Below, one piece after another: positions 15,715 to 32,139 of a DNA stretch of 39,859 nt (position 1 is its first letter; the number at the start of each line of letters is the position of its first letter). Below the pieces are notes generated by a model, which worked only from the letters and a program-made list of their open reading frames with translations, searched no databases and was not told the DNA's origin. The DNA is from a virus. The stretch spans positions 1-39,859 of IMG/VR virus record IMGVR_UViG_3300025641_000019. One strand, written 5' to 3'. The position numbers were made by a program, and so were the translations under genes.

Positions 15715-17448
15715 ATGGCTGATCATAACTTAAGAGCAAGCGGATACGCTTTATACAACACTGCTGTCTTTGGACAGGAGCAGTATGGAGGACATGTTCG
15801 CTCTGAGGTTGCGGTCAGCCAACCTTCTTTGGGACAGGCGTTATTCGCTGATGATCTCCAAAGTGCTACGGAGACAACTTCTCCAACTCCATTCCAGGTT
15901 CATGGTATACTAGCTGATGATACACAGACAGCATCGTCTCAGATATCAGTCAACACACTTAACCAGAACCATTCTCTAATATCTGTAGATTTAAACTCTA
16001 ACTCAGAGATAACTAATCCAGATGTAGATGAACTAAACATATTAGATGCTACTGACGTTAGCTCTGCTACTACACTTACAATGGCTACTGTTGGTCAGGC
16101 TCATGGCTTATTAGCAGATGATGTTGAAACAGACTCAGAAGTATCAGTACCAGTAGCAAGACAGACACACGTAGTTGATGCAGTAGACGTAGAGACAGAC
16201 TCTGAGATAGTAACTCCTGTAATTACACAGTTACACCCGTTTACTAATGTACCTAACAATGCTTTAACTGTAGGTCAAGTAACAACTCCTTCATTCGCTC
16301 AGTTAGAAACACTTAACGCTGTAAGCTTAGAGTCAGACTCAGAAGTAACTGTACCAGATGTTAATGAGTCACATGAACTCTTTAGTGTTAGTGTAGAATC
16401 AGATACATCTGTATCCACACCAGAAGTTGATCAAGATCACGAGTTTGATGCTATAGACCCTGAGGCTACTGGTGAAACTGGTACTACTACAGTAACTCAG
16501 TTCCATGTTATAACGGCTGATGACACTGAATCAGATGCAGAAGTTAACGTACCGTTATTCTCTGCAATTATAAACTTCTTATCAAACAGTATTTCAACTA
16601 CTACTGAAACATCTAGTCCTTCAGTAGAAGAATCTAATATATTCCAAGCAGTACCCCTAGAGGCAACTACTGAAATAACTAACCCTGATGTAGACGAACT
16701 CAACATCTTTGATGCTAGTGATGCTTCATCACCTACTGCTCTAACCATACCAAATGTAGGTCAGTCTCATACTAATGATGCAGTAGATACAGAAACAACT
16801 AGTGAAACATCAACACCTGCTCAAGTAACTAATGTAGTATTCTTAGCAGACTACATAGAGACAACTAGTGAAGTAACAACTAACGGTATATCAGAACTTA
16901 ATATCTTTGGTGCTACACCAGTCCAAACTAATACTTCTGAAGTAACTAATCCAGATGTAGACGAGTTAAACATACTAGACGCTACAGACGTAGCATCTGC
17001 AACTACACTAACACTGCCTCTAATAAGTCAGAGTAACGTACTACTAGCTAACAGTACAGAAACACCTGGTGAAACTAGTCAACCAAGTGTATCACAGTCA
17101 CAAGTGATGGGTGCTACAGACGTAGAGACGACTACTCTAACTGAAACAGTTTCTGCTGTAATCCGCGTTAACTTCCTGTCAGTAGCGACTGATAATACTT
17201 CAGAAACATCAGCACCTGTAATAGCACAACACCAAGTAATACTAAATGTAAGTACAGAAAGTACATCAGAAGTAACAGAAAACACATTAACACAGGTGTC
17301 AGTCTTAAATGCAACAGACGTAGAGACTCAATACCTACTAACACCAAGACCTGTTTTAATAGACTTGAAACCTATTGAACAAGATACAACTAGAACATTG
17401 TTAGTACCTTCTGAATCAAGAACAACAATAGTAGGGAGAGCCGCGTAA
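15715..17448 (+). CDS. Structural protein built from ~24 repeats of 22 residues
   Basis: After a 41-residue N-terminal region, the 577-residue product is almost entirely a tandem 22-residue repeat with consensus L-x-A-x-DVET-x-SEVT-x-P-x-V-x-Q-x-H-x. It ends in a unique 40-residue cap (VLIDLKPIEQDTTRT ... TIVGRAA). It is Thr/Ser/Glu-rich with no Cys or Lys-rich patch. Related repeat proteins occur between capsid and tail-adaptor genes in marine phages. The regular 22-residue period suggests an extended beta-solenoid or fibre projecting from head or neck. Its stop overlaps the next ATG. Confidence 0.8.
   Translation: MADHNLRASGYALYNTAVFGQEQYGGHVRSEVAVSQPSLGQALFADDLQSATETTSPTPFQVHGILADDTQTASSQISVNTLNQNHSLISVDLNSNSEITNPDVDELNILDATDVSSATTLTMATVGQAHGLLADDVETDSEVSVPVARQTHVVDAVDVETDSEIVTPVITQLHPFTNVPNNALTVGQVTTPSFAQLETLNAVSLESDSEVTVPDVNESHELFSVSVESDTSVSTPEVDQDHEFDAIDPEATGETGTTTVTQFHVITADDTESDAEVNVPLFSAIINFLSNSISTTTETSSPSVEESNIFQAVPLEATTEITNPDVDELNIFDASDASSPTALTIPNVGQSHTNDAVDTETTSETSTPAQVTNVVFLADYIETTSEVTTNGISELNIFGATPVQTNTSEVTNPDVDELNILDATDVASATTLTLPLISQSNVLLANSTETPGETSQPSVSQSQVMGATDVETTTLTETVSAVIRVNFLSVATDNTSETSAPVIAQHQVILNVSTESTSEVTENTLTQVSVLNATDVETQYLLTPRPVLIDLKPIEQDTTRTLLVPSESRTTIVGRAA
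15838..17330 (+). repeat. Tandem 66-bp coding repeats (22-residue units)
   Basis: Roughly 24 degenerate units, 66-69 bp each. Three 99-bp segments at 16006-16104, 16672-16770 and 16939-17037 are much more alike than the rest (each encodes TNPDVDELNI followed by a DA-x-D-x-x-S block), showing a higher-order duplication. Confidence 0.8.
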
Positions 17449-17759
17449 TGAAATGGCCTATCAAAGACCCAAGTGAAATACTAGATTACTCAATAGATTG
17501 GTCAAGATTCTTAGAAGGGTCAGTAATACAGTCAGTACAATGGTATATAAGAGATGCAGATGGAGTTAAGACAGCAGTAGGTGAAGCACAAACTGTACAC
17601 GGTTTAACTCTCTTTTCTCAAGTAAGCACAAATACAGTAGCTACAGCTCGTTTTGGTGCAGGTACAAACAACGTAAAGTACAGAATTACATGTGCTATAA
17701 CATACGATACTCATTTAGTAGCTGAAAGAGTTGTCCAACTTCCAGTAAAGGATAGATAA
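17448..17759 (+). CDS. Fibre-tail adaptor-like structural protein
   Basis: This 103-residue protein starts at an ATG overlapping the previous stop. The opening KDPSEILDYSIDWSRFLEG and the closing YRITCAITYDTHLVAERVVQLPVK match small Ig-like structural proteins called fibre-tail adaptors in T7-like and SIO1-like genomes. They form a beta sandwich that links the tail or neck to fibres. Its position between the repeat protein and the tail adaptor agrees. Confidence 0.7.
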   Translation: MKWPIKDPSEILDYSIDWSRFLEGSVIQSVQWYIRDADGVKTAVGEAQTVHGLTLFSQVSTNTVATARFGAGTNNVKYRITCAITYDTHLVAERVVQLPVKDR

Positions 17760-17760
17760 T

Positions 17761-18450
17761 ATGTCTTACAACTACTTAGACTTAGTTAATGATTTAAACC
17801 GTAGAGTAAATGAAACAGAATTAGATAGTTCTAACTTTGCAAGTGCTACTGGTTATTACAACACAGCTAAAGATGCTATCAACTCTTCTATTAGATTATT
17901 AAACCAAGAGACATTCCAATGGCCTTTTAACTTTATTGAGCACGAAGAAGACCTAACTCCAGGTACAATGCGTTATGATATGCCTTACAACTGTAAGACT
18001 ATGGACTTCAATACATTTCGTATTAAGCGTGATGATACTTTGGGTAACGCTACTTCAATGCTAAAGAAGATGGATTACGAAGAGTACTTAGCTAAGCATG
18101 TAGATGATGAGTATAACGATAGCCCTGCTATTAGAACCCTACCTACACACATAATTAAAGCACCAGGAAATCAATATATAGTTTATCCTTCTCCTGATAA
18201 AGAGTATGAGATTCTATTTGAAATGTATACGTTACCAGTAGACCTTATTCTACACTCAGACGTACCTTCTGTCCCAGAAGCTTATAGACATATTATTGTT
18301 GACGGTGCTATGTACTACGTCCAGATATTCCGTAATGATAACCAATCAGCTCAGATGTCTTTAGGTAAGTTTAATGAAGGCGTTAAGAACATGAGAAGTA
18401 TCTGGATTAATAGATTTGAATATGTATATGATAATAGGGTACATTACTAA
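17761..18450 (+). CDS. Tail adaptor (head-tail connector) protein
   Basis: This 229-residue protein lies one base after the previous stop. Features include a helical start (YLDLVNDLNRRVNE), QETFQWPFNF, then TPGTMRYDMPYNCKTMDFNTFRI (recognised as the adaptor hallmark 'WPF ... T-x-G-x-x-x-Y-x-x-P ... D-x-x-x-x-RI'). The C-terminal half is helical and ends in NRVHY. It should form the ring under the portal, like T7 gp11 or the SU10-type adaptor. The nozzle gene overlaps its stop. Confidence 0.8.
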   Translation: MSYNYLDLVNDLNRRVNETELDSSNFASATGYYNTAKDAINSSIRLLNQETFQWPFNFIEHEEDLTPGTMRYDMPYNCKTMDFNTFRIKRDDTLGNATSMLKKMDYEEYLAKHVDDEYNDSPAIRTLPTHIIKAPGNQYIVYPSPDKEYEILFEMYTLPVDLILHSDVPSVPEAYRHIIVDGAMYYVQIFRNDNQSAQMSLGKFNEGVKNMRSIWINRFEYVYDNRVHY

Positions 18451-20441
18451 TGGCTACAGGTTGGGAATCATTTCCACTGGAGCTTAAGGGTGGATTAATA
18501 AGTAACATGTCTAGACTGCAACAAGGGGTTAAAGCTCCTGGTTCTGCTAGACAACTAATTAACTTTGAGCCATCTGTTAAGGGTGGTTATCGTCGTATTA
18601 ATGGTTATGCCAAGTATGATAGTAACCCTATACCTTCATATGGCTCTCCAGTCGTCCAAGGAAGCTCACAGACAGGTACTAGCCTTACTATTGCAAATAT
18701 ATACCTAGAAGTACCTAATGGAGCTACATTCGAAGTAAATGGACTAGGTGAAACTTACACAGTATCGTCTAGTGTTTGGACAGCAGCCAATAAAGAAACT
18801 GTTTTAACTATAACTCCTGCACTGTCAGGAAGTCCTATGGATAAAGCAGCAGTTTCATTTACTAATGTAGTAGGTAAGACAGAGGGTTTATTCTGGTTTG
18901 TTGATACAGCTACTAACTCTAATGTAGCAGTAGTTCTAAGAGATGGTAACTTATATACTACATCAGGTTCTGGTTACACTAATATAAGTGCACCTGGATA
19001 TGGTACAGTAAAGGTTAAGCACTCAGGTCATACTGGTTCTACAATGGACATAGATGGTATTACTAATGATAATGATGGCCCAAGAATAGGTGATACATTC
19101 ACTATTGCAGGTGTTGAGAAAGTATATACAGTATTAGCAACTCCTTCAGTTTCATCAGGACATTGTGTAGTATCTATATACCCTGCCCTAGCTAGTGCTC
19201 CTGCTGATGATGCTAATATAACATTCTTAGGTCGTTCTCAGACAGGTGGTTCTAAGGCTAGATTCCAGAACTTTAACTTTGATGGTACAGAACGTCTTGT
19301 AATGGTTGATGGTGTTAACTATCCTATTACTTGGAATACTAACGAACCTGTTAAAGTGATAGACAGTAATGTAGACATCTTAGGTGCAGAAGTTGTATCT
19401 CAATTCCATGATCATCTATTCTTTGCTAAAGGTTCTTTACTAAGCTTTACAGCTCCGTTTGCACAGAATGATTTTAACACAGGCAATGGTGCAGGTAATG
19501 TAAGACTTCCTGCTCGTATTACAGGTTTAGTAACATTCCGTGATAAACTAATCATCTTTACTAATACTAGTATACACCAGTTAACAGGTACTAGCTCAGC
19601 TACATTTCAGTTAGCAGAAATAGTAGAAGACATTGGTTGCTCAGAACCAGACACTATCCAAGAAGTAGGTGGTGATATTATGTTCATGGGGCCAGACGGT
19701 TTAAGGTTCTTAGGTGCTACTACTCGTATCGGTGACTTTAACTTATCACTAGCTTCTCGTAATATACAAGACCAGGTTACTCAGTTCCGTACAGACTTTA
19801 CAGACATTGTATCTTTAACTATAAGAGGTAAGTCTCAGTACCGTGTATTGGGTTTTGTAAGTGGTCAGACAGAAAGTAATGCTAAAGGATTTATAGGTAC
19901 ACAGTTTGCTGACCAAGACGCTAATAGCTTTGCATGGTCTGAGACTGTAGGTATTAAAGCTTACAGAGCTACATCAGCTAACACAGGTCAAGCGGATATA
20001 TCATTATTTGTAGGTGAGACAGGCTTTGTATACAGGTTAGATATAGGTAATACTTTTGATGGTGCAGCTATACTATCTTCTTTTTACACACCTTTCATGG
20101 CTATTAACGACCCTCGTATGCGTAAGACAATGTATAAAGCTACATCATTCTATGACCCAGAAGGTGCTGTTAATGGTAGTTTAATATTTAAATATGACTT
20201 CCAAAGACCTGGGGTTATACAGCCAAGTACTTCCACACTAGTAGGTGGTGGTTCTTTCTCTATATTTGGGGATGCTACGTTTGGCTCATCAGATTATGGA
20301 GGCAACCCTGAGACTGTTATAGAGACTAATACAACTGGCTCATTCTTTACAATCTCATTACAGTATGAATTTAATGCAATCAACCCACCATTTATAGTAG
20401 ACACTGTTCTACTTGAATACTCAAACAACGATAGGAAATAG
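18450..20441 (+). CDS. Tail nozzle / tail tube-end structural protein
   Basis: This 663-residue beta-rich protein begins at the ATG overlapping the adaptor stop. The opening WESFPLELKGGLISNMSRLQ, then GSARQLINFEPSVKGGYRRI and GYAKYDSNPIP, is a strongly conserved signature of podoviral nozzle proteins (T7 gp12 functional equivalent). Later blocks RLVMVDGVNYPITW, LFFAKGSLLSFTAP and MGPDGLRFLG fit the beta-propeller-like core of this family. It closes the tail and opens at ejection. Confidence 0.82.
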   Translation: MATGWESFPLELKGGLISNMSRLQQGVKAPGSARQLINFEPSVKGGYRRINGYAKYDSNPIPSYGSPVVQGSSQTGTSLTIANIYLEVPNGATFEVNGLGETYTVSSSVWTAANKETVLTITPALSGSPMDKAAVSFTNVVGKTEGLFWFVDTATNSNVAVVLRDGNLYTTSGSGYTNISAPGYGTVKVKHSGHTGSTMDIDGITNDNDGPRIGDTFTIAGVEKVYTVLATPSVSSGHCVVSIYPALASAPADDANITFLGRSQTGGSKARFQNFNFDGTERLVMVDGVNYPITWNTNEPVKVIDSNVDILGAEVVSQFHDHLFFAKGSLLSFTAPFAQNDFNTGNGAGNVRLPARITGLVTFRDKLIIFTNTSIHQLTGTSSATFQLAEIVEDIGCSEPDTIQEVGGDIMFMGPDGLRFLGATTRIGDFNLSLASRNIQDQVTQFRTDFTDIVSLTIRGKSQYRVLGFVSGQTESNAKGFIGTQFADQDANSFAWSETVGIKAYRATSANTGQADISLFVGETGFVYRLDIGNTFDGAAILSSFYTPFMAINDPRMRKTMYKATSFYDPEGAVNGSLIFKYDFQRPGVIQPSTSTLVGGGSFSIFGDATFGSSDYGGNPETVIETNTTGSFFTISLQYEFNAINPPFIVDTVLLEYSNNDRK

Positions 20442-20443
20442 AC

Positions 20444-21880
20444 ATGGGAACAGGTTATACACGTAACGATGCATCTAACAACATAGCAAACGGTAACGTA
20501 ATTGACGCTGCCGATTTGGATGGTGAGTTTGATGCTATAGTAAGTGCATTTGGTACAGGTGGTCACAGCCACGATGGTACATCTGCAGAGGGTGGAGCTA
20601 TTACAGTAGTTGGCCCTACTCAAGAATTCTTAGGAGATGGTAGTTCATTCTACCCTAAGTCAGACGCTACTTACGATCTAGGTAAGTCTACTGCTTCTTT
20701 TGATGTAGCATACGTTGAGTCAATCAACTTAACTGGTACAGCTATTACTGCTAGTGCAACTGAGATTAACTACACAGACGGTGTTACTTCTGCAATACAA
20801 ACACAGTTAGATGGTAAACAAGCAGCAGATGCTAACCTTGTATCAGATGCTAACTATGTAGCAACAGATCAGAACTTTACTAATGCAGATCACACTAAAC
20901 TAAATGGTATTGAAACAAGTGCTACAGCAGATCAAACTGCTGCTGAGATCAGAGCATTAGTTGCTTCTGCAACTGATAGCCAAGTCTTTACAGACGCTGA
21001 CCATACTAAGCTAAATGGTATTGAAACAAGTGCTGACGTAACAGACACAACTAACGTGACTGCAGCAGGAGCCTTAATGGATTCTGAAGTTGATGCTGAT
21101 ATTAAAACACTTACACTACCTGCTAACACAACTATTAGTGCATTTGGTAAAACTTTAGTTGACGATTCTACAGCTTCTGCAGCTAGAACAACTTTAGGTT
21201 TAGGCTCAGCCGCTACTACTGCAGCCTCCGCGTATGCTACCTCGGCACAAGGTACTAAAGCTGATTCAGCTCTACAGTCTGACTCTACCTTAAACTCAGC
21301 TAACCTAAGTGGTGCTTTACCTGCTATAAGTGGCGCAGCTCTAACTGGTATCGAAGGTGTTCCTTCTGGTATTATCTCAATGTGGTCTGGTCAGACTTCT
21401 GCGATACCTAGTGGTTGGCTCTTATGTGATGGTAATAATGGTACTCCAAACCTTACTGATAAGTTCGTAATGGGTGCAGGTACAAGTAATGAAACAACTA
21501 CAGGTGGTGCTAACACTAGAACACTAGCTACAGCAAACATACCAAGCCACACTCACAGTTTCTCAGGTACTACAAATACCACAGGTAGTCACGCACACTC
21601 CGGTTCTACTGCTAGTGCTGGTGCGCACACGCATAGTATTACTAATTTGGGTGGTACGGCTTACCCACAAAGTGGTCCTAACCAAGGAAACCAATCAGGT
21701 TGGGCAACAACGTCTAGTACAAATACGACTTCTGCAGGAGCACACACTCACACCTTGACAATAGATGCTGCAGGAAACCACAATCACACTATCTCAGGTA
21801 CAACAGGTTCTACAGGTTCAACTACTGGATTCGATAACAGACCTGCATACATGGCTCTAGCATATATTATGAAATCATAA
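20444..21880 (+). CDS. Tail fibre with collar domain and His-rich tip
   Basis: This 478-residue protein has a ribosome site AGGAAATAG upstream. The N-terminus (residues 1-60) carries GHSHDGTSAEGG, and residues 125-210 hold two copies of the DADHTKLNGIETSA repeat common in phage fibres. Residues about 305-345 match the Phage Tail Collar domain (GIISMWSGQT ... PSGWLLCDGNNGTPNLTDKFVMGAG). The tip has repeated H-x-H elements (HTH, HAH, HTH, HTH, HNH), which in T4 gp12-type fibres coordinate iron along the trimer axis. It is likely a receptor-binding tail fibre. It ends FDNRPAYMALAYIMKS, the usual collar-protein end. Confidence 0.88.
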   Translation: MGTGYTRNDASNNIANGNVIDAADLDGEFDAIVSAFGTGGHSHDGTSAEGGAITVVGPTQEFLGDGSSFYPKSDATYDLGKSTASFDVAYVESINLTGTAITASATEINYTDGVTSAIQTQLDGKQAADANLVSDANYVATDQNFTNADHTKLNGIETSATADQTAAEIRALVASATDSQVFTDADHTKLNGIETSADVTDTTNVTAAGALMDSEVDADIKTLTLPANTTISAFGKTLVDDSTASAARTTLGLGSAATTAASAYATSAQGTKADSALQSDSTLNSANLSGALPAISGAALTGIEGVPSGIISMWSGQTSAIPSGWLLCDGNNGTPNLTDKFVMGAGTSNETTTGGANTRTLATANIPSHTHSFSGTTNTTGSHAHSGSTASAGAHTHSITNLGGTAYPQSGPNQGNQSGWATTSSTNTTSAGAHTHTLTIDAAGNHNHTISGTTGSTGSTTGFDNRPAYMALAYIMKS

Positions 21881-21897
21881 TTAATATAAAAAAGTAC

Positions 21898-21926
21898 TTG
21901 ACAGATGTGTAAAACATGTGTATAAT
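21898..21926 (+). promoter_or_regulatory. Sigma-70 consensus promoter for acyltransferase/internal protein operon
   Basis: TTGACA at 21898-21903, 17-bp spacer, perfect TATAAT at 21921-21926. It drives the 21965-31167 block, which shows no further promoter. Confidence 0.85.
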
Positions 21927-21964
21927 TAACTTAAGGTTGCCCCCGGTAATATATAGGTATACTA

Positions 21965-22381
21965 ATGGTTATAGACAAGTACACAGCAGTAGTAGATGGT
22001 ATTAGCTTATTAGGACTAGGGGATATACACTCAACGTATACTCCTAGTGAAGTTAATACCTTTCTCCTACTTCCTATAGAACATGATAAGATAAGAATTT
22101 ATTATGAAGATACTAAACCTATAGGATTAATAACTTGGTGTTGGTTATCAACTACTAAGTCTAATCTCTTCTTAAACGATAAGTATGTACCTAGTGAAGA
22201 AGATTACAAACAAGATACCTCAGATGAACTCTGGGGTATGGAATTTATAGCTCCTTTTGGTCACACACGTAAGATGATGAGAGCCATAAGGAAGACAACT
22301 ACAGAACTATACGGAACCGCTAATCAAGTCCACTTCCGAAGATTCTATAATAGGAACAAGTTACACAAGAGGATGTTCTAA
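21965..22381 (+). CDS. HlyC-like (RTX toxin-activating) lysine acyltransferase homologue
   Basis: This is a 138-residue cytoplasm- or virion-type protein with no signal peptide. It matches the toxin-activating lysine acyltransferase (HlyC) layout: a candidate catalytic His at H22 (HlyC His23), KPIGLITWCWLS at 51-62 (HlyC YPVAYCSWANLS), a Y-V-P-S-E-E-D-Y block (HlyC LVAEDW), then LWGMEFIAPFG at 89-99 (HlyC KWFIDWIAPFG) and a basic C-terminus. E93 stands where HlyC has the catalytic Asp92, a conservative change. T7 gp13, also about 138 residues and an acetyltransferase-like internal protein, occupies the same genome slot. Role here is inferred: virion internal protein or protein-modifying enzyme. 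Confidence 0.75.
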   Translation: MVIDKYTAVVDGISLLGLGDIHSTYTPSEVNTFLLLPIEHDKIRIYYEDTKPIGLITWCWLSTTKSNLFLNDKYVPSEEDYKQDTSDELWGMEFIAPFGHTRKMMRAIRKTTTELYGTANQVHFRRFYNRNKLHKRMF

Positions 22382-22383
22382 GA

Positions 22384-24351
22384 ATGTATAATCCATTTTC
22401 AATGAAAAGAATACTTAATCCAGTTGGTTCTGGTATGATTACTTATGGTGGTGGTACGGAAGAAGGTAAAGAACAAGCAGCTAATAGACCTACTACTGCA
22501 CAACCGATCACTAACACCAACACTGGTGAAGTTATAAAAGATGGTCAAGGTAATGCTGTAATGGGTGGAGACCCTGCTACCCTGCAAGAGAGATCATTAG
22601 ATGCAATGAACACTGGTGGTTCTGGTACGTCACCTGATCAATCCGTTACTGCAAGTATAAACCCTTCTCAATTCGCTTCTCCAGATATGATTATAGGAGG
22701 TACACCTCAGTTACCAACTCCTGTAGATGGAACTAATCCTGGAAATAAAGAAACTACTCCTACTGAAACAGCTAAGTCACAATCAGATAATATTAAAGCT
22801 GCTTCTGGTAATATGATGGAAGCATCTATTACATCTCCTGGGACTATGGCTACTACTGCCGCAGTCGATAAGATAGACCCAAATGCTGAAGGAACTACCA
22901 TTGCTGAAGGTACTGGTGCACTAGACCCTAATGCTCCACAGATAACAGGTCCTGACAGCTTCAACGCTGCCTCTGTAGACCCTACTAAAGCAGCAGATGG
23001 TGTATCATCAGTAACAGACAATTTAGAAGCTGTGCAAGGCTCTTTAGACCCTGCAGCTAAAGTTGAGGCAGAACAGAAAGACCCTACTACTTTATCAGCT
23101 AAAGACTTAGAAGCTCAACAGATAGCTCAAGCACAAACAGTATCACCTGCCGCTAAGCGTACAATAGAATCAGGAGAGATGATCTCAGGTTCTGCAGTAG
23201 ACATGGCAGCAGTTGATGAAGCTCTTGATATACAAGCAGCTCAAGCTAACCCATCAGCACAAGCTACAGTAAAAGGTCAACTAGGACAGTTGATGTTAGA
23301 CTTTGATGGAACTAACCCTCCTGCATGGGCAGCAGGTGCACTAAGAAATGCATCAGCACAGATGGCAGCTAGAGGTTTAGGTGCTTCATCTATGGCAGGT
23401 CAAGCCTTAGTACAAGCAGCTATGGAATCAGCAGTACCTATTGCTATGGCAGATGCTCAGACATTTGCTAAGTTTGAGTCACAGAACTTATCTAATAGAC
23501 AACAGACAACAATGTTCGCGGCACAACAACGTGCTCAGTTCTTGAACCTAGAGTTCTCACAAGAGTTCCAAACAAGAGTAGCTAATGCATCTAAGATATC
23601 TGATGTAGCTAACATGAACTTTACTGCTGAACAGCAGATAGCTCTTGAGAACGCTCGTATGGCTCAGACAGTAGACATTACTAACCTTAATGCTGTAAAT
23701 GCTAAGATGATGTCAGATGCAGCAGCTATGTCACAAATGGACATGCAGAACTTAAACAACAGACAACAAGCAGCAGTTATGAATGCACAGTCTTTCTTAG
23801 CTATGGATATGAAGAACATGGACTTGAATCAACAAACGTCTATGTTTAAAGCACAGTCTAACATACAGGCTATCTTTAGTGACCAAGCAGCAGATAATGC
23901 TTCTAAACAGTTTAATGCATCTAGTGAAAACCAGACTAATCAGTTCTTTGCTAACATGGCTACACAAGTACAACAGTTTAATGCAGGTATGGATGTTCAA
24001 CGTGATCAGTTTAATTCACAGAACGCATTAGTAATTGCACAGGCTAACGCTCAGTGGAGACAGAACGCCTCTACTGTTAATGCACAGTCACAGAACGTAG
24101 CTAACTTAGAATCAGCTAAAGCAGCTAACATGTTTACACAGCAGATGCTCGATACAGTATGGCAACGTGAACGTGATATTATGGACTACGCATTTAAGCA
24201 ATCAGAGTCTGCAACAGATAGAGCACTTAGTATATTCTTAGCTAATGAGTCTAGGGAGTTATCTGAGTGGGAGACTAATCAATCTAATAAACAAAAAGAC
24301 AAAGAAGGTATTGGATACCTCTTCGGTCAAATGCTAGGAGGACTAGGATAA
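22384..24351 (+). CDS. Internal virion protein, Gln/Asn/Ala-rich
   Basis: This 655-residue protein starts three bases after the acyltransferase stop. Residues 1-280 are Gly/Pro/Thr-rich and disordered-looking. Residues 300-640 form a long helical region rich in Ala, Gln, Asn and Met with a recurring NL-x-NRQQ / MD-x-xN-x-x-QQ motif, as seen in ejection-apparatus proteins of marine T7-like phages. It lacks Cys. It likely sits in the capsid core and enters the host with the DNA (T7 gp14/gp15 functional class). Identity to a specific T7 protein cannot be claimed. Confidence 0.7.
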   Translation: MYNPFSMKRILNPVGSGMITYGGGTEEGKEQAANRPTTAQPITNTNTGEVIKDGQGNAVMGGDPATLQERSLDAMNTGGSGTSPDQSVTASINPSQFASPDMIIGGTPQLPTPVDGTNPGNKETTPTETAKSQSDNIKAASGNMMEASITSPGTMATTAAVDKIDPNAEGTTIAEGTGALDPNAPQITGPDSFNAASVDPTKAADGVSSVTDNLEAVQGSLDPAAKVEAEQKDPTTLSAKDLEAQQIAQAQTVSPAAKRTIESGEMISGSAVDMAAVDEALDIQAAQANPSAQATVKGQLGQLMLDFDGTNPPAWAAGALRNASAQMAARGLGASSMAGQALVQAAMESAVPIAMADAQTFAKFESQNLSNRQQTTMFAAQQRAQFLNLEFSQEFQTRVANASKISDVANMNFTAEQQIALENARMAQTVDITNLNAVNAKMMSDAAAMSQMDMQNLNNRQQAAVMNAQSFLAMDMKNMDLNQQTSMFKAQSNIQAIFSDQAADNASKQFNASSENQTNQFFANMATQVQQFNAGMDVQRDQFNSQNALVIAQANAQWRQNASTVNAQSQNVANLESAKAANMFTQQMLDTVWQRERDIMDYAFKQSESATDRALSIFLANESRELSEWETNQSNKQKDKEGIGYLFGQMLGGLG

Positions 24352-25004
24352 TGAACTTAGCTAATAAAGGTATGTACCTTAAGAACCTAGAAGCTGCTCG
24401 TAAAGCCTTAGTTAAACAGATACAAGATTCTATTGGTGGTGATGATGCCCCAGAAGAAGTAGAACAAGAAACAAGTGAATCAGGTCTAATGCGTCCACGT
24501 ATGCGTCCTGAGAACTTAGAAGCACCTGTGCAAGATGAAGAAGGTATGGGTTTAGCTATGATGAGAAGCTTTCAGAGACCAAAGGCTAGACCTGAGGGTA
24601 CTGACATGAAGAGCTTTGCTATTAAACTCAAAGACTCTGAGAGTAGTGGTAAGTCAGATGCACAGGTTAAGTTAGATGATGGTCGTAAGATGACTGGTTC
24701 TTATCAATTCTCTGATGCTAGACTAAAGGACTTTATGAAAGCAGAAGGTATGAAGTTCTCTACAGAAACATTCAAGCGTAAGCCTAAGTTACAAGAAAAA
24801 GTATTCGAATGGCATATGAAAGATATTGATTCTTCTATTGACAAATTAGATAAATCTGGTACAATGTCACGAGATGGTTTAAGAGCTGTAGCTCACTTAG
24901 GTGGTAAGACAGGTATGAAGAAGTTTGTTAAGACTAAAGGCAAGTATAATCCTGCTGATAAGTTTGGAACTAAGTTATCTGACTACTACAACAAATTCAA
25001 ATAA
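24351..25004 (+). CDS. Virion-associated lysozyme / lytic transglycosylase-like protein
   Basis: This 217-residue protein starts at TAATG overlap. Residues 1-85 are a linker with repeated RP-x-x-RP elements (RPRMRPE, RPKARPE). Residues 88-217 resemble a lysozyme-fold domain: E97 in DSESSGK is the candidate catalytic Glu, followed by TGSYQFSDARLKDFM (115-129), LRAVAHLGG near 177-185, and a closing NPADKFGTKLSDYYNKF. These are hallmarks of phage peptidoglycan hydrolases that open the cell wall during ejection. Because no other endolysin is evident in the window, a role in lysis is also possible. Confidence 0.72.
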   Translation: MNLANKGMYLKNLEAARKALVKQIQDSIGGDDAPEEVEQETSESGLMRPRMRPENLEAPVQDEEGMGLAMMRSFQRPKARPEGTDMKSFAIKLKDSESSGKSDAQVKLDDGRKMTGSYQFSDARLKDFMKAEGMKFSTETFKRKPKLQEKVFEWHMKDIDSSIDKLDKSGTMSRDGLRAVAHLGGKTGMKKFVKTKGKYNPADKFGTKLSDYYNKFK

Positions 25005-25016
25005 AGGAATATGTAA

Positions 25017-25520
25017 ATGATTATACCTGGACAGTCCCTGACTGCAGAGCCGAAGAATGCACCATATGAGAATCCACCTGAGATGAATACTGCAGAGGAT
25101 GCTATTATGTGGCATCTAACTCGCATGGTAGAAGATGAAAAGATGGAAGCATTAATTGATACTTTAGAACTAGGTCTGGATGTAGTAACTATTACAGAAG
25201 GTCTACTAAGAGGTGCAGTACTTGATGGAAGACATAGCATCGACATATCATTAGTTATAGCACCAGTTATACATGAGTTTATTGTAAGCTCTGCTGAGAA
25301 GGTTGGCATTGACTTTGATGAAGGTCTACCTGATAACTCAAAAGAACGTGAAGCAATCGAATACCAGATCAACGAAAAGAAAGCTAAAGACATGCTTGCT
25401 GAGTTAGATATGGAAGTTGAAGACGAAGAAGTTGAAGAGCCTATGCAAGAAGAGTTACCAATGGATATGCCTATGGAAGAACCTAAGGGTTTAATGGCTA
25501 GACGAGGAGAAGAGTTATGA
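25017..25520 (+). CDS. Conserved virion-region protein (helical, acidic)
   Basis: This 167-residue protein is preceded by AAAGGA. Residues 55-95 read LLRGAVLDGRHSIDISLVIAPVIHEFI in part, a segment I recall as conserved in cyanophage and other marine phage proteins of unknown function. The C-terminal third is Glu/Met/Pro-rich and ends GLMARRGEEL. No enzyme motif is present. It overlaps the next gene as ATGA. It is probably a virion internal or assembly factor, judged from its operon only. Confidence 0.6.
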   Translation: MIIPGQSLTAEPKNAPYENPPEMNTAEDAIMWHLTRMVEDEKMEALIDTLELGLDVVTITEGLLRGAVLDGRHSIDISLVIAPVIHEFIVSSAEKVGIDFDEGLPDNSKEREAIEYQINEKKAKDMLAELDMEVEDEEVEEPMQEELPMDMPMEEPKGLMARRGEEL

Positions 25521-27502
25521 GTTTCTGGGCAGGTGTAGCATCGGGCTTTAAAGACGCTAAGGCATCGAAGGCAGAGAAAGAAGAATTAGAAGCACGTAGA
25601 GCAGAACGTCAAGCTACCTTTGAATACAACAAGGGTAGAGACTTAAAGGCTGACGAAAGATATGAGAAAGACCAAGCAGAGAGCTTACGCAGATGGGAGC
25701 TTAACTATCAAGCTACTTTAGACAACACTAAGTCTAACAGAGAGTTCAGAGACAAGAAGTTTGAAACTGATCAGGCTAACATTGATCGTACTTTTACTAC
25801 TAATGAGCAGTGGAAGAACAAAGAATGGTCTCTAGGTATGGACAAATGGGACTTTACTAAAGACCAAGCTAAAGAAGCTACTGAACACTCTAACAAACTA
25901 TATAATATGGCATTAGACAAGTTTGAATACAGCCAAGATAGAGACGTGGTACAAGATGCACTTAACTTTAGAGCAGAGGCTAGAACAGTAGCTGAAGCAC
26001 TACGTGTTAGAGAAGCACAGACATTTAATGAAGAGTTAGCTACTAAGAACTTTGAGATGCGTGAAGAGCAATTCCAAGAACAGATGAGAGCAGCAGGTGT
26101 TTCTGAAGACTTAGCAAAGAGAGGTTTTGATCTTAAAGAACGTGCGGCTGATATGGCATATACACAAGCAGTTATAGAGATGATACCTGCATCCTTACTT
26201 GGTGCTTTATCAGGAGACAAAGGTAAAGCTGTACCTATTGGTTCTAAGACTACTGTAGCTGTGTCTAAGAAGTTTACTGCTAACTACAACACTCAGTTAA
26301 CTAAACAAGAACAAGAATCTCCATTCTTTAAAGCTGCTATATCTAGTCCTTCAGCACAAGCATCACTACAAGCTTTTGTAGATGCACAGGCTAAGAAGGG
26401 TAATGAGATAGAGTTGAATGAATTACCTCAGTACTTTAGTTACTTAGGTCAAGTAGAAGGTAAGAACAAGGAAGAAGCTCTAGAGATCGTAGAAGATATG
26501 ATGAAGGGTGATGGACTAAAAGACCCACAAGCTATGGCTAAAGGTTTACTGGTTCTTAAGAGTTATAGACCTACTGAAGAGTTGTTCCAACAAACAGGTG
26601 TACCTGTAGACGCTAATGAAGTTACTAAAGGTGAAGGCATTTGGAAGACTGCTATAGCTAACGAAGCTCGTATAGAGGTCGGTAAGATAACGGACGAAGC
26701 TAAGAAAGATAAAGTAGAAAGAGCATTAGCATTTATTAAGAAAGATTCAAATGATGCTAGAGGCTACCAGATACTAGCTGAGCTAAACTATGGTAAAAGC
26801 ATAATGTCTGAGTTTAACTTAGATAAGAACCCTCTTGTTCAGTCATTCTACCCAGAGGCTACAGAAGAAGATGAAGTTATTCTAGAAGAGGGTGGTTCTG
26901 GACTTACTAAACTTCCTCCAGAATCATCTACTGTCTTCTCATCTTTTGATGAAGCTAAAGCAGCTATTGATGGAGGTTTCACAGGTAAGTACTCTGTAGG
27001 TGGTAAAGCTTACAAGACTGCAGAACCTAAGTACCCTGACAATAAACCTGCAGGTATGCTATCTAATGATGCAGGTGATGAACTTGATATAGAAGATGCA
27101 CTTGCAGCTGACTTTGGTGAAGAGGCTAAGCTTAAAGAATCAGGTGCAGTAGAGAAGGTCTTTGATCAACAAGCAGAAGCTTTATCTACAATGGGTAAAG
27201 GTGTCTCTGAAGAACAAGCAGAAGGCAATAGACCTGGTGAGAAAGAAATAGATACAGAAACGTTTGTAGATAGATCATTCCAAGGTGAAGGTGATGAAGC
27301 TATGGACTTGTCAGAAGCTCCTACAGAGGTTGTTACTGACAAGATCATGGATGTTGTTGATGCTATACCTCCAAGAACACCTAAGAAGAATAGAAAAGAA
27401 TGGGCTATGAAGGAGTTTATGAAACGATACTCAAACGCTAACATCACACCAGAAGAGTTAGAAGTTAAAGTAGATACGTTCCTAGAATTCGCTAACCAGT
27501 AA
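25517..27502 (+). CDS. Internal virion protein, long coiled coil
   Basis: This 661-residue protein has residues 10-215 forming an uninterrupted charged coiled coil rich in Lys, Glu, Arg, Trp and Phe (repeated D-x-x-F/W-x-x-x-x-A/D spacing). A mixed helical region and an acidic, Pro-containing C-terminal third follow. The size and place next to a >1200-residue partner match the T7 gp15-gp16 arrangement of ejection proteins that build the trans-envelope channel. Sequence-level similarity to gp15 is not evident to me. Confidence 0.68.
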   Translation: MSFWAGVASGFKDAKASKAEKEELEARRAERQATFEYNKGRDLKADERYEKDQAESLRRWELNYQATLDNTKSNREFRDKKFETDQANIDRTFTTNEQWKNKEWSLGMDKWDFTKDQAKEATEHSNKLYNMALDKFEYSQDRDVVQDALNFRAEARTVAEALRVREAQTFNEELATKNFEMREEQFQEQMRAAGVSEDLAKRGFDLKERAADMAYTQAVIEMIPASLLGALSGDKGKAVPIGSKTTVAVSKKFTANYNTQLTKQEQESPFFKAAISSPSAQASLQAFVDAQAKKGNEIELNELPQYFSYLGQVEGKNKEEALEIVEDMMKGDGLKDPQAMAKGLLVLKSYRPTEELFQQTGVPVDANEVTKGEGIWKTAIANEARIEVGKITDEAKKDKVERALAFIKKDSNDARGYQILAELNYGKSIMSEFNLDKNPLVQSFYPEATEEDEVILEEGGSGLTKLPPESSTVFSSFDEAKAAIDGGFTGKYSVGGKAYKTAEPKYPDNKPAGMLSNDAGDELDIEDALAADFGEEAKLKESGAVEKVFDQQAEALSTMGKGVSEEQAEGNRPGEKEIDTETFVDRSFQGEGDEAMDLSEAPTEVVTDKIMDVVDAIPPRTPKKNRKEWAMKEFMKRYSNANITPEELEVKVDTFLEFANQ

Positions 27503-27513
27503 AGGATTATAAC

Positions 27514-30500
27514 ATGCCGGCAAGAGCACCTATTGGATTAGAAACAGCACAAGATAGACTAGAAAGACTAAACAATCCAGTCATACAGCAGTCCACTGAC
27601 TTAGATGTACCTGAGTGGGCTGTGTCTGATGAGCCTGAGATACCCTCAGAGCCCCAAAGAGCACCCGTAGAAGCCGAGGAGACACCTTCTTGGGCTATAC
27701 CTGACTCAGAGGAAGAGGAAGTACCTAGTTGGGCTATTTCTGATGACTCTTCTCCTAGCGTAGATGTGCAAATGTCTAGTATGTTAGATGAGGATGGACT
27801 AGTTAAACTACCTACAGGTGTTGAAGCCTTTACATATTCACAAGATGATATGTCTCTACGTGATGAACTATTCAATCCTATCAACGACTTTGTTAAGTCT
27901 AGGTATGGTATACAAGCTATTGAGAATAGAAGTAGAGAAGAGATTGTAGATACATTCCTTAATAACAGACGAGGAGTATCTGCAGGTAACTCTATTAAAG
28001 CTATAGCCGAAGTTGATTGGCTAATGGATGCTAAGAAAGACCCTGAGAAACTACTAACAGCAGGTAAAGCCTACTCTATCTTTGAGAAGATGGAAGGTTT
28101 AACTGGTGAAGGTGTCACTTGGAGTGAGTTCGGAGAAGGTATTAAGGACTATGTAGGTTCTGTTATACTTGACCCTGTAAACTTAGTAGGTGGATTTATA
28201 GGTAAAGCTGTAGGTGGTACTGCAGTTAAGACTTCTGTTATGACTGCTGAGAAGCTAGCTATGAAAGAAGTAACTAAACAATTAATGGCAGGTGCTTCTA
28301 AAGAGATAGCCGCTAAAGCAGGTACTAAGGTACTTAAAGCAGCATCTAAAGTAGCTACTGTTAATGCTACTAAAGAAGTAGCTGAGTTCTCTGCTAAGAT
28401 GGCAGCTAACAAAGGTCTAAAGAAAGTACTTAATAAAGGTGCACTTAAAGAGATAGCTACTGTAACAGCATTTGATGCGGCTACAAATGGTGGCTTTGAG
28501 TACCTATATCAACGTGCATTAGTAGACACTAACGTACAAGAAGAGATCAGCACAACTGCTGTAGGTATTGCTGCCTTATCAGCTATGGCTATGGGTACAG
28601 TACAAGCAGGTGTAGTTCTTAAACGTGGTTCATCTGACACCGCTCTTATTACTGAGACTGTAAAGAAGGTATCTCCTAAACAGATAGCTAAAGAAATGCA
28701 AGATGCTATCAAGTCTTTTGTAGAGAAAGAACCAGAAGGTACAACTACTTGGTTACAGAAGGTTAAAGCAGGGGATGATATCACTAAAGGTGATACTGAC
28801 TTCTTTATTGATGTACTACTAGGTATACACAAAGGCGAAGGTGAGAACAACCTCAAAGGTCTAGCACAGATCATGCAAGAAGGTGGTTACTTATTTAGTA
28901 AACGTGATGACAATGATAAGATATCAAACTGGATAGCTGACTTTATGAAAGAAGAGCTAGACCAAACTGATATTGATGGTATTATGAAAGCATTTGGTGG
29001 TAAAGCTAAACGTAAGAATACTAAGATTACACCAGAAACATTTGGTGATTCATTCTCCTCTAAGATGAATGCAAGTGCTCGTAGCATGAACAGTGTTATG
29101 CAAGTTGCTAAGAGATTAGATGTTAATGTAGAAGACTTAGACATGGATAGCTTTATGAAAGAAGCTTTAGACTTAAACCTTATGGATGACATTATCCTAC
29201 AGAAAGATAAGTTTAAACCAAGAGGTGCTGTTGCATCTAACATATCTGAGCTTCAGAATAAGTTTATTAGATCATTAGTTTCACACCCATCTACTTCTAT
29301 CTTAAACGTATTAGGTTATGGAGCAGCAGCAGGTTTAGATATATCTACTGATGTAACATTAGCTTTGTATAAAGGTGGTAAAGGTACATTCCAATCAGTA
29401 CTAGGGTTTGCAGATGCAGGTGCTAAGAACACTTATGTAGCTAAGCAACTACTACTAGCTTCTAAAGACCGTGTTAAGTTTGCATTTGATAATGATATGA
29501 CATATGCGGCTTATAAGAGTGCACTACAGAATAACACTGGTGCTTTAGATAAACTTAACCGTACATTGTCTGGTGGTGTTGAGATTAGTAACACTGTAGA
29601 TCAGATGACTACACTAGGTAAAGGTTCTTTCTTACAAGACAAATCAGACAGTGTTATCAATGCTGTTCAAAGAGCTACATTCGTTAATGCTCAAGATGCT
29701 TACACTAAGTCTCAAGACTATGTAGGACAGATGAACAAGCAACTAAGACTTAAGTTTGGTAAGAGTTGGAATGAGTTCTACAATAGCCCAGAAGCTGTTA
29801 AGATCATGGCTACTAAAGAATACAAGCAAATGGAAATGGATGCTGTAGCTAAGACTATGGAGAATACATTCTCTAAGTCATACAAGAACCGTACTAAACT
29901 AGGTGAGCTTGCAGGTTTCGTAGAAGATGCACGTAACATCCCAGGTCTTGGTTTCATGGTTCCGTTTGGTAGGTTCTTTAACAACACTATAGACTTCGGT
30001 ATCAAGAATACACCAGTACTTAACATAGCAGTTAAGAAGGTTAGTGGTAAGTATAATGATGTACCTATAGAGGAACTAGCGGCAAGAGGTGCTGTGGTTA
30101 CTGGTTTAGTATACACAATGGCTCAAGACGAACAAGAGAACCGTAAAGCAGGTCTAGGGTTATATGATAACATCGTAGATGGTCAAGTTGTATCACAACA
30201 GTATGATTATCCTATCTCCTTATTCAAAGCAGCTGCTCGTGTAGTATCATACCACATGGCAGGTGAAGAAGTTCCAGAAGAGATACTAGCACAGATTGGT
30301 AAAGACTTTGGTGGAGGTGGCCTAACACGTAACCTTACTAAGACTACTGGTGAGATTGCTGACTTCACAATGGCTATTCTTAAAGGTGAGATAGACAACG
30401 CTTACGATGAAGGTTTGAATGTTGTAACAGAGATATCTGCACAAGCTATATCAGGTTTTGTTAGACCTCTAGAGCCTATTGATACTGCATTTGGTTTGTT

Positions 30501-31167
30501 CATGGACATAGATCAAAGCCCTAAAGACTTAAAGCAGATAGAAGGTAGACTAAATAGAACTATCGCTGAGTCATTCAAGTACGTTGATTCCTTTACTGAC
30601 TTCTTGAGCACAGGTGAAGGTATGCCAACTAAACAATCTTCAGCTGCAGGTGAGACTAAGCAACAGTCTGCTAAGAACGTAGGTGTTAGAACTGTAGAGT
30701 TAACAAACACACAACGTATTATGAACCTAATGGGATTAGACCAATGGAAGATTAATGCTCCTTTGTCTAAGGACAAGAAGCGAATGATACCAGAGGCTGT
30801 TAATGAGTACCAACGTCAGATGTATCAGTCTATAGAAGCATGGTCTACTACAAAGATGGAAAGTATGAAGTTCCGTAATCTACCACAAGATGAACTACGC
30901 ATTATATGGAAAGATAAGTTGAAGGAAGTTAAAGAATTAACTAAGCTTCGATTGGTAACGAGATATGACGGAACAGGCACAACGTTACGCAGTCAGTATG
31001 ACCTAGTGTCTAAGTTTGCAGCTAATGATATTAAGAAAGCTATGGCAGACCTAGAGTTAGGTGATAACATGGGTGATCTTAGTGAAGGTCAATTAATGTT
31101 GATTGATGCAGAGTTAAACAATGCTGAGACAATCAAACGAATGAGAATGGACCCAACCAACTTCTAG
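27514..31167 (+). CDS. Large internal virion (ejection) protein
   Basis: This is the largest gene of the window (1217 residues) and the last late gene, preceded by AAAGGATTATAAC. The N-terminal 80 residues are acidic and hold three copies of a short motif (VPEWAVSDE at 32-40, TPSWAIPDS at 57-65, VPSWAISDD at 70-78). Residues 210-385 are Ala-rich amphipathic and partly hydrophobic helices (e.g. GIAALSAMAMGTVQAGVVL), suited to membrane insertion. The rest is helical and Lys-rich. T7 gp16 is of comparable length but carries an N-terminal transglycosylase, absent here; the separate lysozyme-like protein from 24351 may supply it. Confidence 0.75.
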   Translation: MPARAPIGLETAQDRLERLNNPVIQQSTDLDVPEWAVSDEPEIPSEPQRAPVEAEETPSWAIPDSEEEEVPSWAISDDSSPSVDVQMSSMLDEDGLVKLPTGVEAFTYSQDDMSLRDELFNPINDFVKSRYGIQAIENRSREEIVDTFLNNRRGVSAGNSIKAIAEVDWLMDAKKDPEKLLTAGKAYSIFEKMEGLTGEGVTWSEFGEGIKDYVGSVILDPVNLVGGFIGKAVGGTAVKTSVMTAEKLAMKEVTKQLMAGASKEIAAKAGTKVLKAASKVATVNATKEVAEFSAKMAANKGLKKVLNKGALKEIATVTAFDAATNGGFEYLYQRALVDTNVQEEISTTAVGIAALSAMAMGTVQAGVVLKRGSSDTALITETVKKVSPKQIAKEMQDAIKSFVEKEPEGTTTWLQKVKAGDDITKGDTDFFIDVLLGIHKGEGENNLKGLAQIMQEGGYLFSKRDDNDKISNWIADFMKEELDQTDIDGIMKAFGGKAKRKNTKITPETFGDSFSSKMNASARSMNSVMQVAKRLDVNVEDLDMDSFMKEALDLNLMDDIILQKDKFKPRGAVASNISELQNKFIRSLVSHPSTSILNVLGYGAAAGLDISTDVTLALYKGGKGTFQSVLGFADAGAKNTYVAKQLLLASKDRVKFAFDNDMTYAAYKSALQNNTGALDKLNRTLSGGVEISNTVDQMTTLGKGSFLQDKSDSVINAVQRATFVNAQDAYTKSQDYVGQMNKQLRLKFGKSWNEFYNSPEAVKIMATKEYKQMEMDAVAKTMENTFSKSYKNRTKLGELAGFVEDARNIPGLGFMVPFGRFFNNTIDFGIKNTPVLNIAVKKVSGKYNDVPIEELAARGAVVTGLVYTMAQDEQENRKAGLGLYDNIVDGQVVSQQYDYPISLFKAAARVVSYHMAGEEVPEEILAQIGKDFGGGGLTRNLTKTTGEIADFTMAILKGEIDNAYDEGLNVVTEISAQAISGFVRPLEPIDTAFGLFMDIDQSPKDLKQIEGRLNRTIAESFKYVDSFTDFLSTGEGMPTKQSSAAGETKQQSAKNVGVRTVELTNTQRIMNLMGLDQWKINAPLSKDKKRMIPEAVNEYQRQMYQSIEAWSTTKMESMKFRNLPQDELRIIWKDKLKEVKELTKLRLVTRYDGTGTTLRSQYDLVSKFAANDIKKAMADLELGDNMGDLSEGQLMLIDAELNNAETIKRMRMDPTNF

Positions 31168-31176
31168 ACAAAGAAA

Positions 31177-31208
31177 AACCCCCAACAGTAATTAAACTGA
31201 AGGGGGTT
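31177..31208. terminator. Bidirectional terminator between convergent arms
   Basis: AACCCCC (31177-31183) pairs with GGGGGTT (31202-31208), and CAGT/ACTG pairs inside around AATTAA. Read on the minus strand the stem is followed by TTTTTCTTT, a good U-tract; on the plus strand it is followed only by AAGTTTAG. It separates the late (+) and early (-) transcripts. Confidence 0.85.
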
Positions 31209-31218
31209 AAGTTTAGTC

Positions 31219-31455
31219 TTACTTATTATATCGAAGCAGGAGGTCCACATACCTGTATGCTTCATCGACGAGTTCTTGTGCTCGACTTGATCTGTTGGAG
31301 ACTAACAGTCCTGCTAGGACAGAAGCTGCTAGCTGTTCCCTGTGAGAGGAGAGGCTCTTAGGAACGCTCTCAACAGATGTCTCTTTCAACTTAATAAAGG
31401 CTTTAGCCTCTTGTTCCAGACTAGGAGCAGGGGGCTTTTTGCGTTTGGTGGTCAT
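31219..31455 (-). CDS. Small basic protein, last gene of early arm
   Basis: The chosen start is the ATG at 31455, with AAAGGA about ten bases upstream. An in-frame ATG at 31515 lies within the -35 element and is rejected. The 78-residue product has a basic N-terminus (TTKRKKPPAP), a helix, and a SSHREQLAASVLAGLLV segment followed by an amphipathic helix. No family is recognised. It has its own promoter and is followed directly by the convergent terminator, so it can be expressed as a short separate transcript. Confidence 0.55.
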   Translation of the reverse strand: MTTKRKKPPAPSLEQEAKAFIKLKETSVESVPKSLSSHREQLAASVLAGLLVSNRSSRAQELVDEAYRYVDLLLRYNK

Positions 31456-31486
31456 GTTAACATATTCCTTTAATTGAATATAAGGA

Positions 31487-31515
31487 AGTGTACCATAAGT
31501 ACACCCCTTTGTCAA
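31487..31515 (-). promoter_or_regulatory. Sigma-70 type promoter for the 31455 gene
   Basis: On the minus strand: TTGACA (31515-31510), 17-bp spacer, TACACT (31492-31487) with extended TGG. It begins right after the ClpP-like stop codon. Confidence 0.7.
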
Positions 31516-31518
31516 GTC

Positions 31519-32139
31519 CTAATATGTATTAACTATCTCATCTACAATACCATGTTTGATGCACTCTTCTGGAGTTAACCATTCATCAGTAGGATGTAAA
31601 AGATGTTTGCGTATATACTTCTCAGACTTCTTAGTACATTTCTTATAGTGATTGACCATACGATCTCCTGCTAGGTCAAACTCTTTAATCATTGCGTGTA
31701 GTTCATGTTCTTTACCTTTAGAACCCCAAGCATATTGATGTGACATAACAGACGTGTTGTGGGTTAGTAGTCGTCTATCTCCTGCCATTATAGTTAGTAC
31801 GCCGCATGAAGCTACTAGACCTTTACCTATTGTTACTATAGGTATCTCTGACATCTTCATAGCATCAATAAGGTGGAAGGCTGAGTGTACTGAACCTCCA
31901 GGACTATTGATAACTAATGTAATCTGATCTGGTCTAACATCTTCTGGCATTAAGTTGTATTCGTATATAGCAGCTACTAGAGGCATGATCTTCTCTTGAT
32001 CAAACTTATCTACTAACATTAACATACCGTGTTCCCTCAGGTATGAACCTGGAGGCAGCATAGTAGTCTCTGGTTTATCTTCAGCAACTATCTTAGTTGT
32101 TTCTTTGATAGTCTTCTTTGCCATTTCCATTATAGTCAT
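31519..32139 (-). CDS. ClpP-family serine protease, cytoplasmic
   Basis: The ATG at 32139 overlaps the preceding TAA and has AAGGAGG at ideal spacing; ATG 32145 is too close to it. The 206-residue product has the ClpP/crotonase fold signatures: INSPGGSVHSAFHLIDAM (78-95) for the oxyanion region, candidate nucleophile S111 in GLVASCGVLTIMAG and H134 in SVMSHQYAWG. The C-terminal handle has KKSEKYIRKHL and TPEECIKHGIVDEI. The ClpP catalytic Asp position (usually in 'I-x-R-D') reads IRKH, so the third triad residue is unclear. It probably degrades or processes proteins, perhaps with a host Clp ATPase. It is encoded in tandem with an exported paralogue-like protein. Confidence 0.85.
   Translation of the reverse strand: MTIMEMAKKTIKETTKIVAEDKPETTMLPPGSYLREHGMLMLVDKFDQEKIMPLVAAIYEYNLMPEDVRPDQITLVINSPGGSVHSAFHLIDAMKMSEIPIVTIGKGLVASCGVLTIMAGDRRLLTHNTSVMSHQYAWGSKGKEHELHAMIKEFDLAGDRMVNHYKKCTKKSEKYIRKHLLHPTDEWLTPEECIKHGIVDEIVNTY

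Follow-up and report, generated by a model that had tools for sequence, protein, structure and literature searches.

A HlyC-family lysine acyltransferase gene in the late module of marine bacteriophages and its possible role in lipidating a virion protein

Why would a bacteriophage carry, among its structural genes, a member of a toxin-activating acyltransferase family, and what would such an enzyme modify? The question is raised by IMG/VR virus record IMGVR_UViG_3300025641_000019, whose 39,859 bases are the stretch of DNA analysed here (the window). Because related isolates measure 52.7–55.3 kb, the window is probably a partial genome of a marine bacteriophage. Its plus-strand late module runs in the order terminase, portal, capsid, adaptor, large tail protein, tail fibre and a 138-aa open reading frame (ORF), followed by genes for a 655-aa protein, for one resembling lysozymes and for other large proteins. 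The adaptor or small tail tubular protein, in a gp11-like position, has 229 aa (17761–18450; SU10_adaptor, E 1.8e-18; phrog_10775, E 2.2e-32). It is followed by a 663-aa large tail or tubular structural protein in a gp12-like position (18450–20441), which matches structural PHROGs such as phrog_1302 (E 3.8e-19); the top match of the same protein is phrog_5107, named amidase (E 2e-43). A 478-aa tail collar fibre protein (20444–21880; phrog_1800, E 1.4e-18) lies directly 5′ of the 138-aa ORF, which begins with ATG and occupies 21965–22381. Two nucleotides past its stop starts the gene for a 655-aa protein rich in Ala, Gln and Asn (22384–24351), judged from position and composition only to be a probable internal or ejection protein of the virion, and a candidate substrate. 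This protein has kin in HMO-2011, CRP-2, CRP-345 and other phages (27 records); CRP-345 is treated, together with CRP-235, in a paper on HMO-2011-type phages (PMC9038755). Further downstream on the plus strand lie genes for a 217-aa endolysin or tail-lysozyme-like protein (24351–25004; phrog_26675, E 2e-12), a conserved protein of 167 aa, which comes after the lysozyme-like gene in many relatives too (25017–25520), a 661-aa probable internal or ejection protein placed by its position and a weak pilot-protein match (25517–27502; phrog_35928, E 0.15), and a 1217-aa protein in a gp16-like position, the last large one of the module (27514–31167). A ribonucleotide reductase large-subunit-like gene is found on the minus strand at 33889–35637.

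The original prediction had read the 138-aa ORF as a homologue of HlyC, and this reading was borne out by profile and structure comparisons. The only Pfam-A family matched at E up to 1 was HlyC (PF02794; E 2.7e-15), with 56.8 bits against a curated cut-off of 25, and the predicted WCWLS and EFIAPFG blocks are in place. A profile of phage homologues, from which the window and nine close relatives had been excluded, detected the ORF at E 3.8e-61, compared with 0.053 for the best of 1000 residue shuffles; in a search space of 279 window segments of at least 40 aa, it was the only window segment among the best 8 of 44 matches at E up to 10. In the PDB, ApxC (4whn) ranked first for the single sequence (E 0.011), and a 25-homologue profile raised this match to E 1.1e-7, with all others at 0.18 or worse. 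An AlphaFold2 model built from 47 sequences (pLDDT 88.3, pTM 0.84) has the ApxC-like GNAT fold: Foldseek returned ApxC at E 1.2e-8, ahead of the N-acetyltransferase SbzI at 8.4e-3, and VIA aligned 4whn_B (ApxC) with Z 16.5 and an rmsd of 2.5 over 129 residues, the runner-up being the SxtA didomain with Z 10.4.

Consistent with this assignment, the ApxC alignments pair H22 (codon 22028–22030) with the catalytic histidine, His23 in HlyC and His24 in ApxC in the numbering given in PMC8510554, and E93 (22241–22243) with the aspartate that precedes IAPFG. This aspartate would be Asp93 of ApxC, provided that the numbering offset of 11 residues seen at His24 (chain position 35) is constant. HlyC is described as using an acyl-ACP donor and His23 (PMC3034196), and in the direct-attack model set out in PMC8510554 the aspartate of the dyad activates the lysine while the histidine protonates the ACP thiolate. 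As judged from alignment and predicted fold, H22 and E93 would likewise meet in one pocket. Positions 21965–22381 of the window thus encode a real member of the HlyC/TAAT family.

Both catalytic positions are conserved in phage homologues, as anticipated. Two scans of IMG/VR yielded 43 loci, with the partial locus L044 dropped, and then 80 retained of 108, with many contigs common to both; these 80 loci, the window and CRP-235 gave 62 distinct podovirus-type proteins once identical proteins had been removed. Position 22 is His in 59 of the 62 and Tyr in three, and position 93 is acidic in all 62 (Glu in 40, Asp in 22). The three Tyr22 sequences form one clade (support 99/97) with 36–37% G+C; Tyr-for-His homologues of the podovirus type are found at L027, L080 and L085 (and L031, L032 and L036). 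The Asp-to-Glu change to which the original prediction drew attention is therefore present but not special, and among 11 bacterial members found by profile, four mutually close kin that exceed the Pfam HlyC cut-off (L327–L330) have Glu as well. In the same 11, read from motifs, one (L331) is non-acidic at this position and three have Tyr at the His position. HlyC was present in 7 of 148 genomes of one bacterial order, including the starting genome, and in 0 of 14 control genomes. The dN/dS ratio was 0.11–0.36 across 11 pairs of phage homologues (12 pairs were tried, and L033/L089 was skipped for unequal lengths), so the 138-aa gene is under purifying selection. In ordinary GNATs the acid and base roles are played by Tyr and Glu; by analogy, acid–base chemistry in this family could survive the replacement of His by Tyr and of Asp by Glu.

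The gene is closely tied to the one that follows it. In 81 of 81 podovirus-type loci the next gene starts between −11 and +3 nt from the acyltransferase stop. The next gene belongs to the family of the 655-aa protein in 69 of 80 IMG/VR loci; nine of the remaining 11 have another gene of 413–858 aa, and in the other two it is shorter or truncated where the contig ends. CRP-235 encodes a HlyC protein, gp30, which falls in the same sequence group as the window protein with 37% identity, then a 491-aa protein, then a lysozyme. The downstream products are mostly one family of probable virion proteins, and this tight coupling supports the earlier suggestion that virion proteins are plausible acylation targets.

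A similar arrangement occurs in a second, SAR11 siphophage-like phage type. HTVC112P gp46 is a HlyC protein (Pfam E 3e-16) whose gene overlaps the next by 1 nt, and the product of that next gene matches the central tail fibre J (phrog_31, 5.9e-55). The group is widespread in SAR11 siphophage-like contigs (L152 8007–8393, and loci L165–L244): among 80 HTVC112P-like relatives retained of 129, 79 have the same 1-nt overlap with the next ORF, 41 of these next ORFs running off the contig. HTVC111P (gp50) and HTVC026P (gp47) show the same order with a 13-nt overlap with a J-like gene, and Pfam confirms both as HlyC. HTVC202P has no HlyC-family gene beside J. The acidic residue is present in all 63 HTVC112P-like rows left once identical proteins had been removed, and none of the 63 has His at the aligned position; this absence, together with the Tyr found in 3 of the 62 podovirus-type proteins, counts against virion lipidation. 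Podovirus-type and siphovirus-type HlyC proteins, taken as one clade, gave a p-AU of 0.46, which neither establishes nor rejects a single phage ancestry for them.

What would the enzyme act on? As the original prediction held, there is no RTX toxin gene beside it: none of the 18 window proteins scanned against Pfam, neighbours on both sides included, has an RTX or HlyA domain, and none of the 18 is the product of an RTX protoxin or type I secretion gene of a hlyCABD-type operon. Because no toxin gene was found beside the 138-aa gene, the enzyme may lipidate proteins of the phage's own particle. With most reserve for the substrate and the benefit, we infer that the 138-aa protein would be a working lysine fatty-acyltransferase of the HlyC/TAAT type that takes an acyl chain from host acyl-ACP and attaches it to one or more lysines of a phage protein from the same late operon. 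The likeliest target would be a virion protein that touches or passes into the host envelope, namely the large downstream protein or a neighbour. Its lipid would hold the tail or ejection apparatus fast in the host's outer membrane, a role also proposed for the lipid that CdiC adds to the receptor-binding domain of CdiA. We hold with moderate confidence, at about even odds, that an active lysine fatty-acyltransferase has been recruited to lipidate a phage virion protein. A more specific form of this proposal, to which we incline somewhat less, is that in both marine phage types a HlyC-type enzyme translationally coupled to J or to a probable ejection protein acylates that envelope-contacting protein, so that the particle can be anchored in the host outer membrane or breach it.

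If a particular lysine of a virion protein is acylated, it might be conserved only where the enzyme is present, as in CdiA, whose enzyme-less relatives lack the acylated lysine according to the account of cdiC-less systems in PMC8510554. We therefore compared lysines in loci with and without HlyC. Identical proteins were dropped from the alignments of the downstream protein and of the product of the following gene, and CRP-235-like loci were kept outside the HlyC-containing side there; in the comparisons of the lysozyme-like, 663-aa, 661-aa and 1217-aa proteins they were counted apart. The downstream protein has no lysine that is invariant with HlyC (60 sequences with HlyC and 77 without), its most conserved lysine being present in 83% and 84%, respectively; some lysines are commoner with HlyC, for example 50% versus 8%, and none of these reaches two thirds. 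The product of the following gene, aligned after lengths outside 140–420 aa had been dropped, also has no HlyC-specific invariant lysine (50 versus 54 sequences), the best being present in 24 of 50. In a smaller alignment of the lysozyme-like protein, 14 of 20 HlyC-containing rows have a residue at K130 and all 14 have Lys, compared with one of four rows without HlyC; this lead is weak because no lysine exceeds 24 of 50 in the wider alignment. K115 of the 663-aa tail protein is Lys in 12 of 12 HlyC-containing rows with a residue (25 in all), and the single row without HlyC has Asn. For the 1217-aa protein, the best lysine, K732, is Lys in 23 of 23 rows with HlyC but also in 35 of 36 without, and for the 661-aa protein no row without HlyC was found for comparison. 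Tail fibre J has no HlyC-specific invariant lysine either (39 rows with HlyC versus HTVC202P and CRP-406): each lysine present in at least 90% of the 39 rows is also Lys in HTVC202P or varies within the HlyC-containing set. It is mainly because this CdiA-type test failed in three candidate proteins that our confidence is only moderate. The acylated position may shift between lineages, so these results leave the proteins in place as candidate substrates.

One other possible explanation is that the enzyme is an active acyltransferase that modifies a host protein of the membrane, the envelope or metabolism during takeover, the late module being a convenient place for its expression. In none of the virion proteins tested is a lysine invariant specifically with HlyC, which favours this explanation, as does a predicted promoter. 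The 84-nt gap 5′ of the gene contains a perfect sigma-70 consensus site, TTGACA and TATAAT separated by 17 nt (21898–21926, plus strand), 38 nt before the start codon. It is the only 12-of-12 site in 17000–32000 and one of two in the window, where 0.05 would be expected; the other lies on the minus strand at 39142–39170, before minus-strand ORFs. In general, promoter-like sites are no more frequent in the region than expected (30 found versus 39.0 expected). Of the 79 loci (from 81) with at least 120 nt upstream, 27 have the same perfect site 29–49 nt ahead of HlyC, with differing spacers; all 27 belong to the window's clade, in which L069 has none. Random 200-nt windows from the same loci contained a 12-of-12 site in 20 of 2000 cases, some possibly these very sites. 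In 60 relatives without HlyC, all with at least 700 nt upstream, the 700 nt before the downstream reading frame never contained a perfect site. Host RNA polymerase could therefore make the enzyme independently of late expression. However, we found no terminator-like site between the acyltransferase gene and the next, so the promoter would drive both. The tight spacing in 81 of 81 loci also argues against a host target, as does the ORF overlap seen in the second phage type (79 of 80 loci), and the TAATs described in PMC3034196 and PMC8510554 act on the products of adjacent genes. We therefore regard modification of a host protein as unlikely, though it deserves weight.

The HlyC gene is not a fixed part of this place in the genome. 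Among 52 relatives of the downstream protein, six have HlyC and 46 have a match to none of three acyltransferase-like profiles; these 52 are the ones with at least 1.5 kb upstream among the best 80 of at least 579 confirmed relatives, a sample biased towards the window. The gene is therefore accessory, which suits a host target and, like the J of HTVC202P without its enzyme, counts against virion lipidation. In 23 of 47 HlyC-less loci with a readable preceding gene, that gene belongs to one family of mostly 84–88 aa with a C-terminal hydrophobic stretch, possibly a holin (loci L248–L321); the others have different small proteins or lysozyme-like or tail-like proteins. CRP-738, CRP-3 and CRP-212 carry, where CRP-235 has HlyC, a different protein of 149–154 aa related to phrog_7642 (L163 1544–1999; L161 2327–2791; L164 2126–2575), which precedes a 481–503-aa protein and a lysozyme gene. 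The CRP-738 protein is annotated as a putative acyltransferase. We considered this family as an equivalent acyltransferase and set it aside: no kinship of the CRP-738 protein to HlyC was detected, no Pfam family scored above its cut-off in the 149–154-aa proteins, and GNAT identity could not be shown. The protein at the same place in CRP-345 was likewise rejected as an equivalent, having no kinship to HlyC and a C-terminal hydrophobic stretch. A scan against NCBIfam gave nothing useful.

The loss of the catalytic histidine in some lineages raises the possibility that the protein is a former enzyme that no longer catalyses a reaction and now serves the downstream protein as a chaperone or assembly factor. 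Its place before the first internal protein resembles that of T7 gp13, and a paper on cobaviruses compares a GNAT encoded beside internal virion proteins with gp13, which has a suggested role in virion morphogenesis (PMC6775973). However, the acidic catalytic residue is kept in 62 of 62 and 63 of 63 proteins, the second position is His or Tyr in 62 of 62, and the majority of the downstream protein's relatives do without such a partner. We judge a chaperone to be improbable, to much the same degree as a host target, and continue to prefer lipidation of a virion protein.

Is the 138-aa protein simply this phage's gp13? The original prediction placed it in the T7 gp13 slot and raised the possibility of a common origin. 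T7 gene 13 (27307–27723) also encodes 138 aa, lies after gene 12 (tail) and before gene 14 (internal virion protein), and is preceded by the promoter phi13; its product gives a confident model of a canonical GNAT (pLDDT 93.6). The likeness in length, relative place, preceding promoter and GNAT-type fold thus holds. The slot does not: in the window a tail-fibre-like gene separates the gp12-like gene from the 138-aa gene, which stands directly before the first internal-protein-like gene, itself encoding only a probable internal protein, and with 46 of 52 relatives lacking HlyC there is no dedicated gp13 place. Nor is the common origin supported: HHalign of the phage HlyC profile with that of gp13 gave a probability of 0.1 (per cent) over 13 aligned columns, and the 138-aa ORF, matching HlyC alone in Pfam at E up to 1, does not match PF11090, the gp13 family. 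The top structural matches of the gp13 model are ordinary acetyltransferases, ApxC being absent among the 50 listed, and the N-terminal order of secondary structure differs, with two helices first in the window protein and a strand first in gp13. The profile comparison and the separate structure models thus led us to reject a shared origin beyond the GNAT superfamily as unsupported, and we give almost no credence to a recent common origin with gp13. GNAT-fold proteins recur at this place in different podoviruses, and they may have a function in common.

Could the protein activate an RTX or other toxin whose gene lies somewhere else in the phage? The family name and two gammaproteobacterial contigs with a HlyC-family gene adjoining ABC-transporter and HlyD genes might suggest so, but we consider it highly improbable: no RTX or HlyA domain occurs in the 18 proteins scanned from a window that is probably a partial genome, and none is named in the CRP-235 annotation, which covers 40.4 of 52.7 kb with many genes hypothetical.

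GenBank already applies the family name, as toxin-activating lysine-acyltransferase or RTX toxin acyltransferase, to CRP-235 gp30, HTVC111P gp50, HTVC026P gp47 and HTVC112P gp46. In the literature found on phage and acyltransferase, no title or abstract opening takes up phage HlyC-type enzymes; the word acyltransferase is absent from the main text of PMC9038755, on CRP-235, and occurs in PMC7029224 in the reference list alone. If our proposal is true, the addition of fatty acids to their particles would give phages a novel means of engaging a membrane, and would put to a new use a toxin-activating family that the papers cited here link with RTX toxins and with effectors of class IV CDI systems. 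The phages concerned are marine relatives of HMO-2011-type phages and SAR11 siphophages, of which isolates exist, so the proposal is directly testable.

Compared with known systems, the locus is a phage-specific deployment of a real HlyC-family gene. It resembles HlyC and ApxC (PF02794, 4whn) in profile, predicted fold, dyad positions and place before a large partner gene, as hlyC precedes hlyA, whereas those proteins are longer (168–183 residues in 4whn versus 138 aa) and have Asp rather than Glu, and the window has a phage late module in place of RTX protoxin or type I secretion genes among its scanned proteins. T7 gp13 (PF11090, phrog_308) has the same length, a GNAT-superfamily fold and a similar place, the window gene standing before that of a protein only probably internal to the virion, but it is a canonical acetyltransferase-like GNAT with no detected sequence kinship. 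The HlyC proteins of HTVC111P, HTVC026P and HTVC112P likewise belong to the family and lie directly 5′ of a large late gene; unlike the window protein, they have no His at the aligned position and are followed by a J-like tail protein. A parallel in mode of action only is CdiC of class IV CDI systems, described in PMC8510554 as a HlyC-type enzyme outside an RTX operon that lipidates the receptor-binding region of the adjacent CdiA. Like the phage enzyme, CdiC adjoins the gene of an envelope-binding protein that has enzyme-less relatives. In the CDI system the partner, CdiA, is a secreted effector whose acylated lysine has been demonstrated, whereas the phage partner and its lysine are candidates only, and the phage gene has no CdiA or CdiB genes adjacent to it, its neighbours being phage tail, lysozyme-like and other late-module genes.
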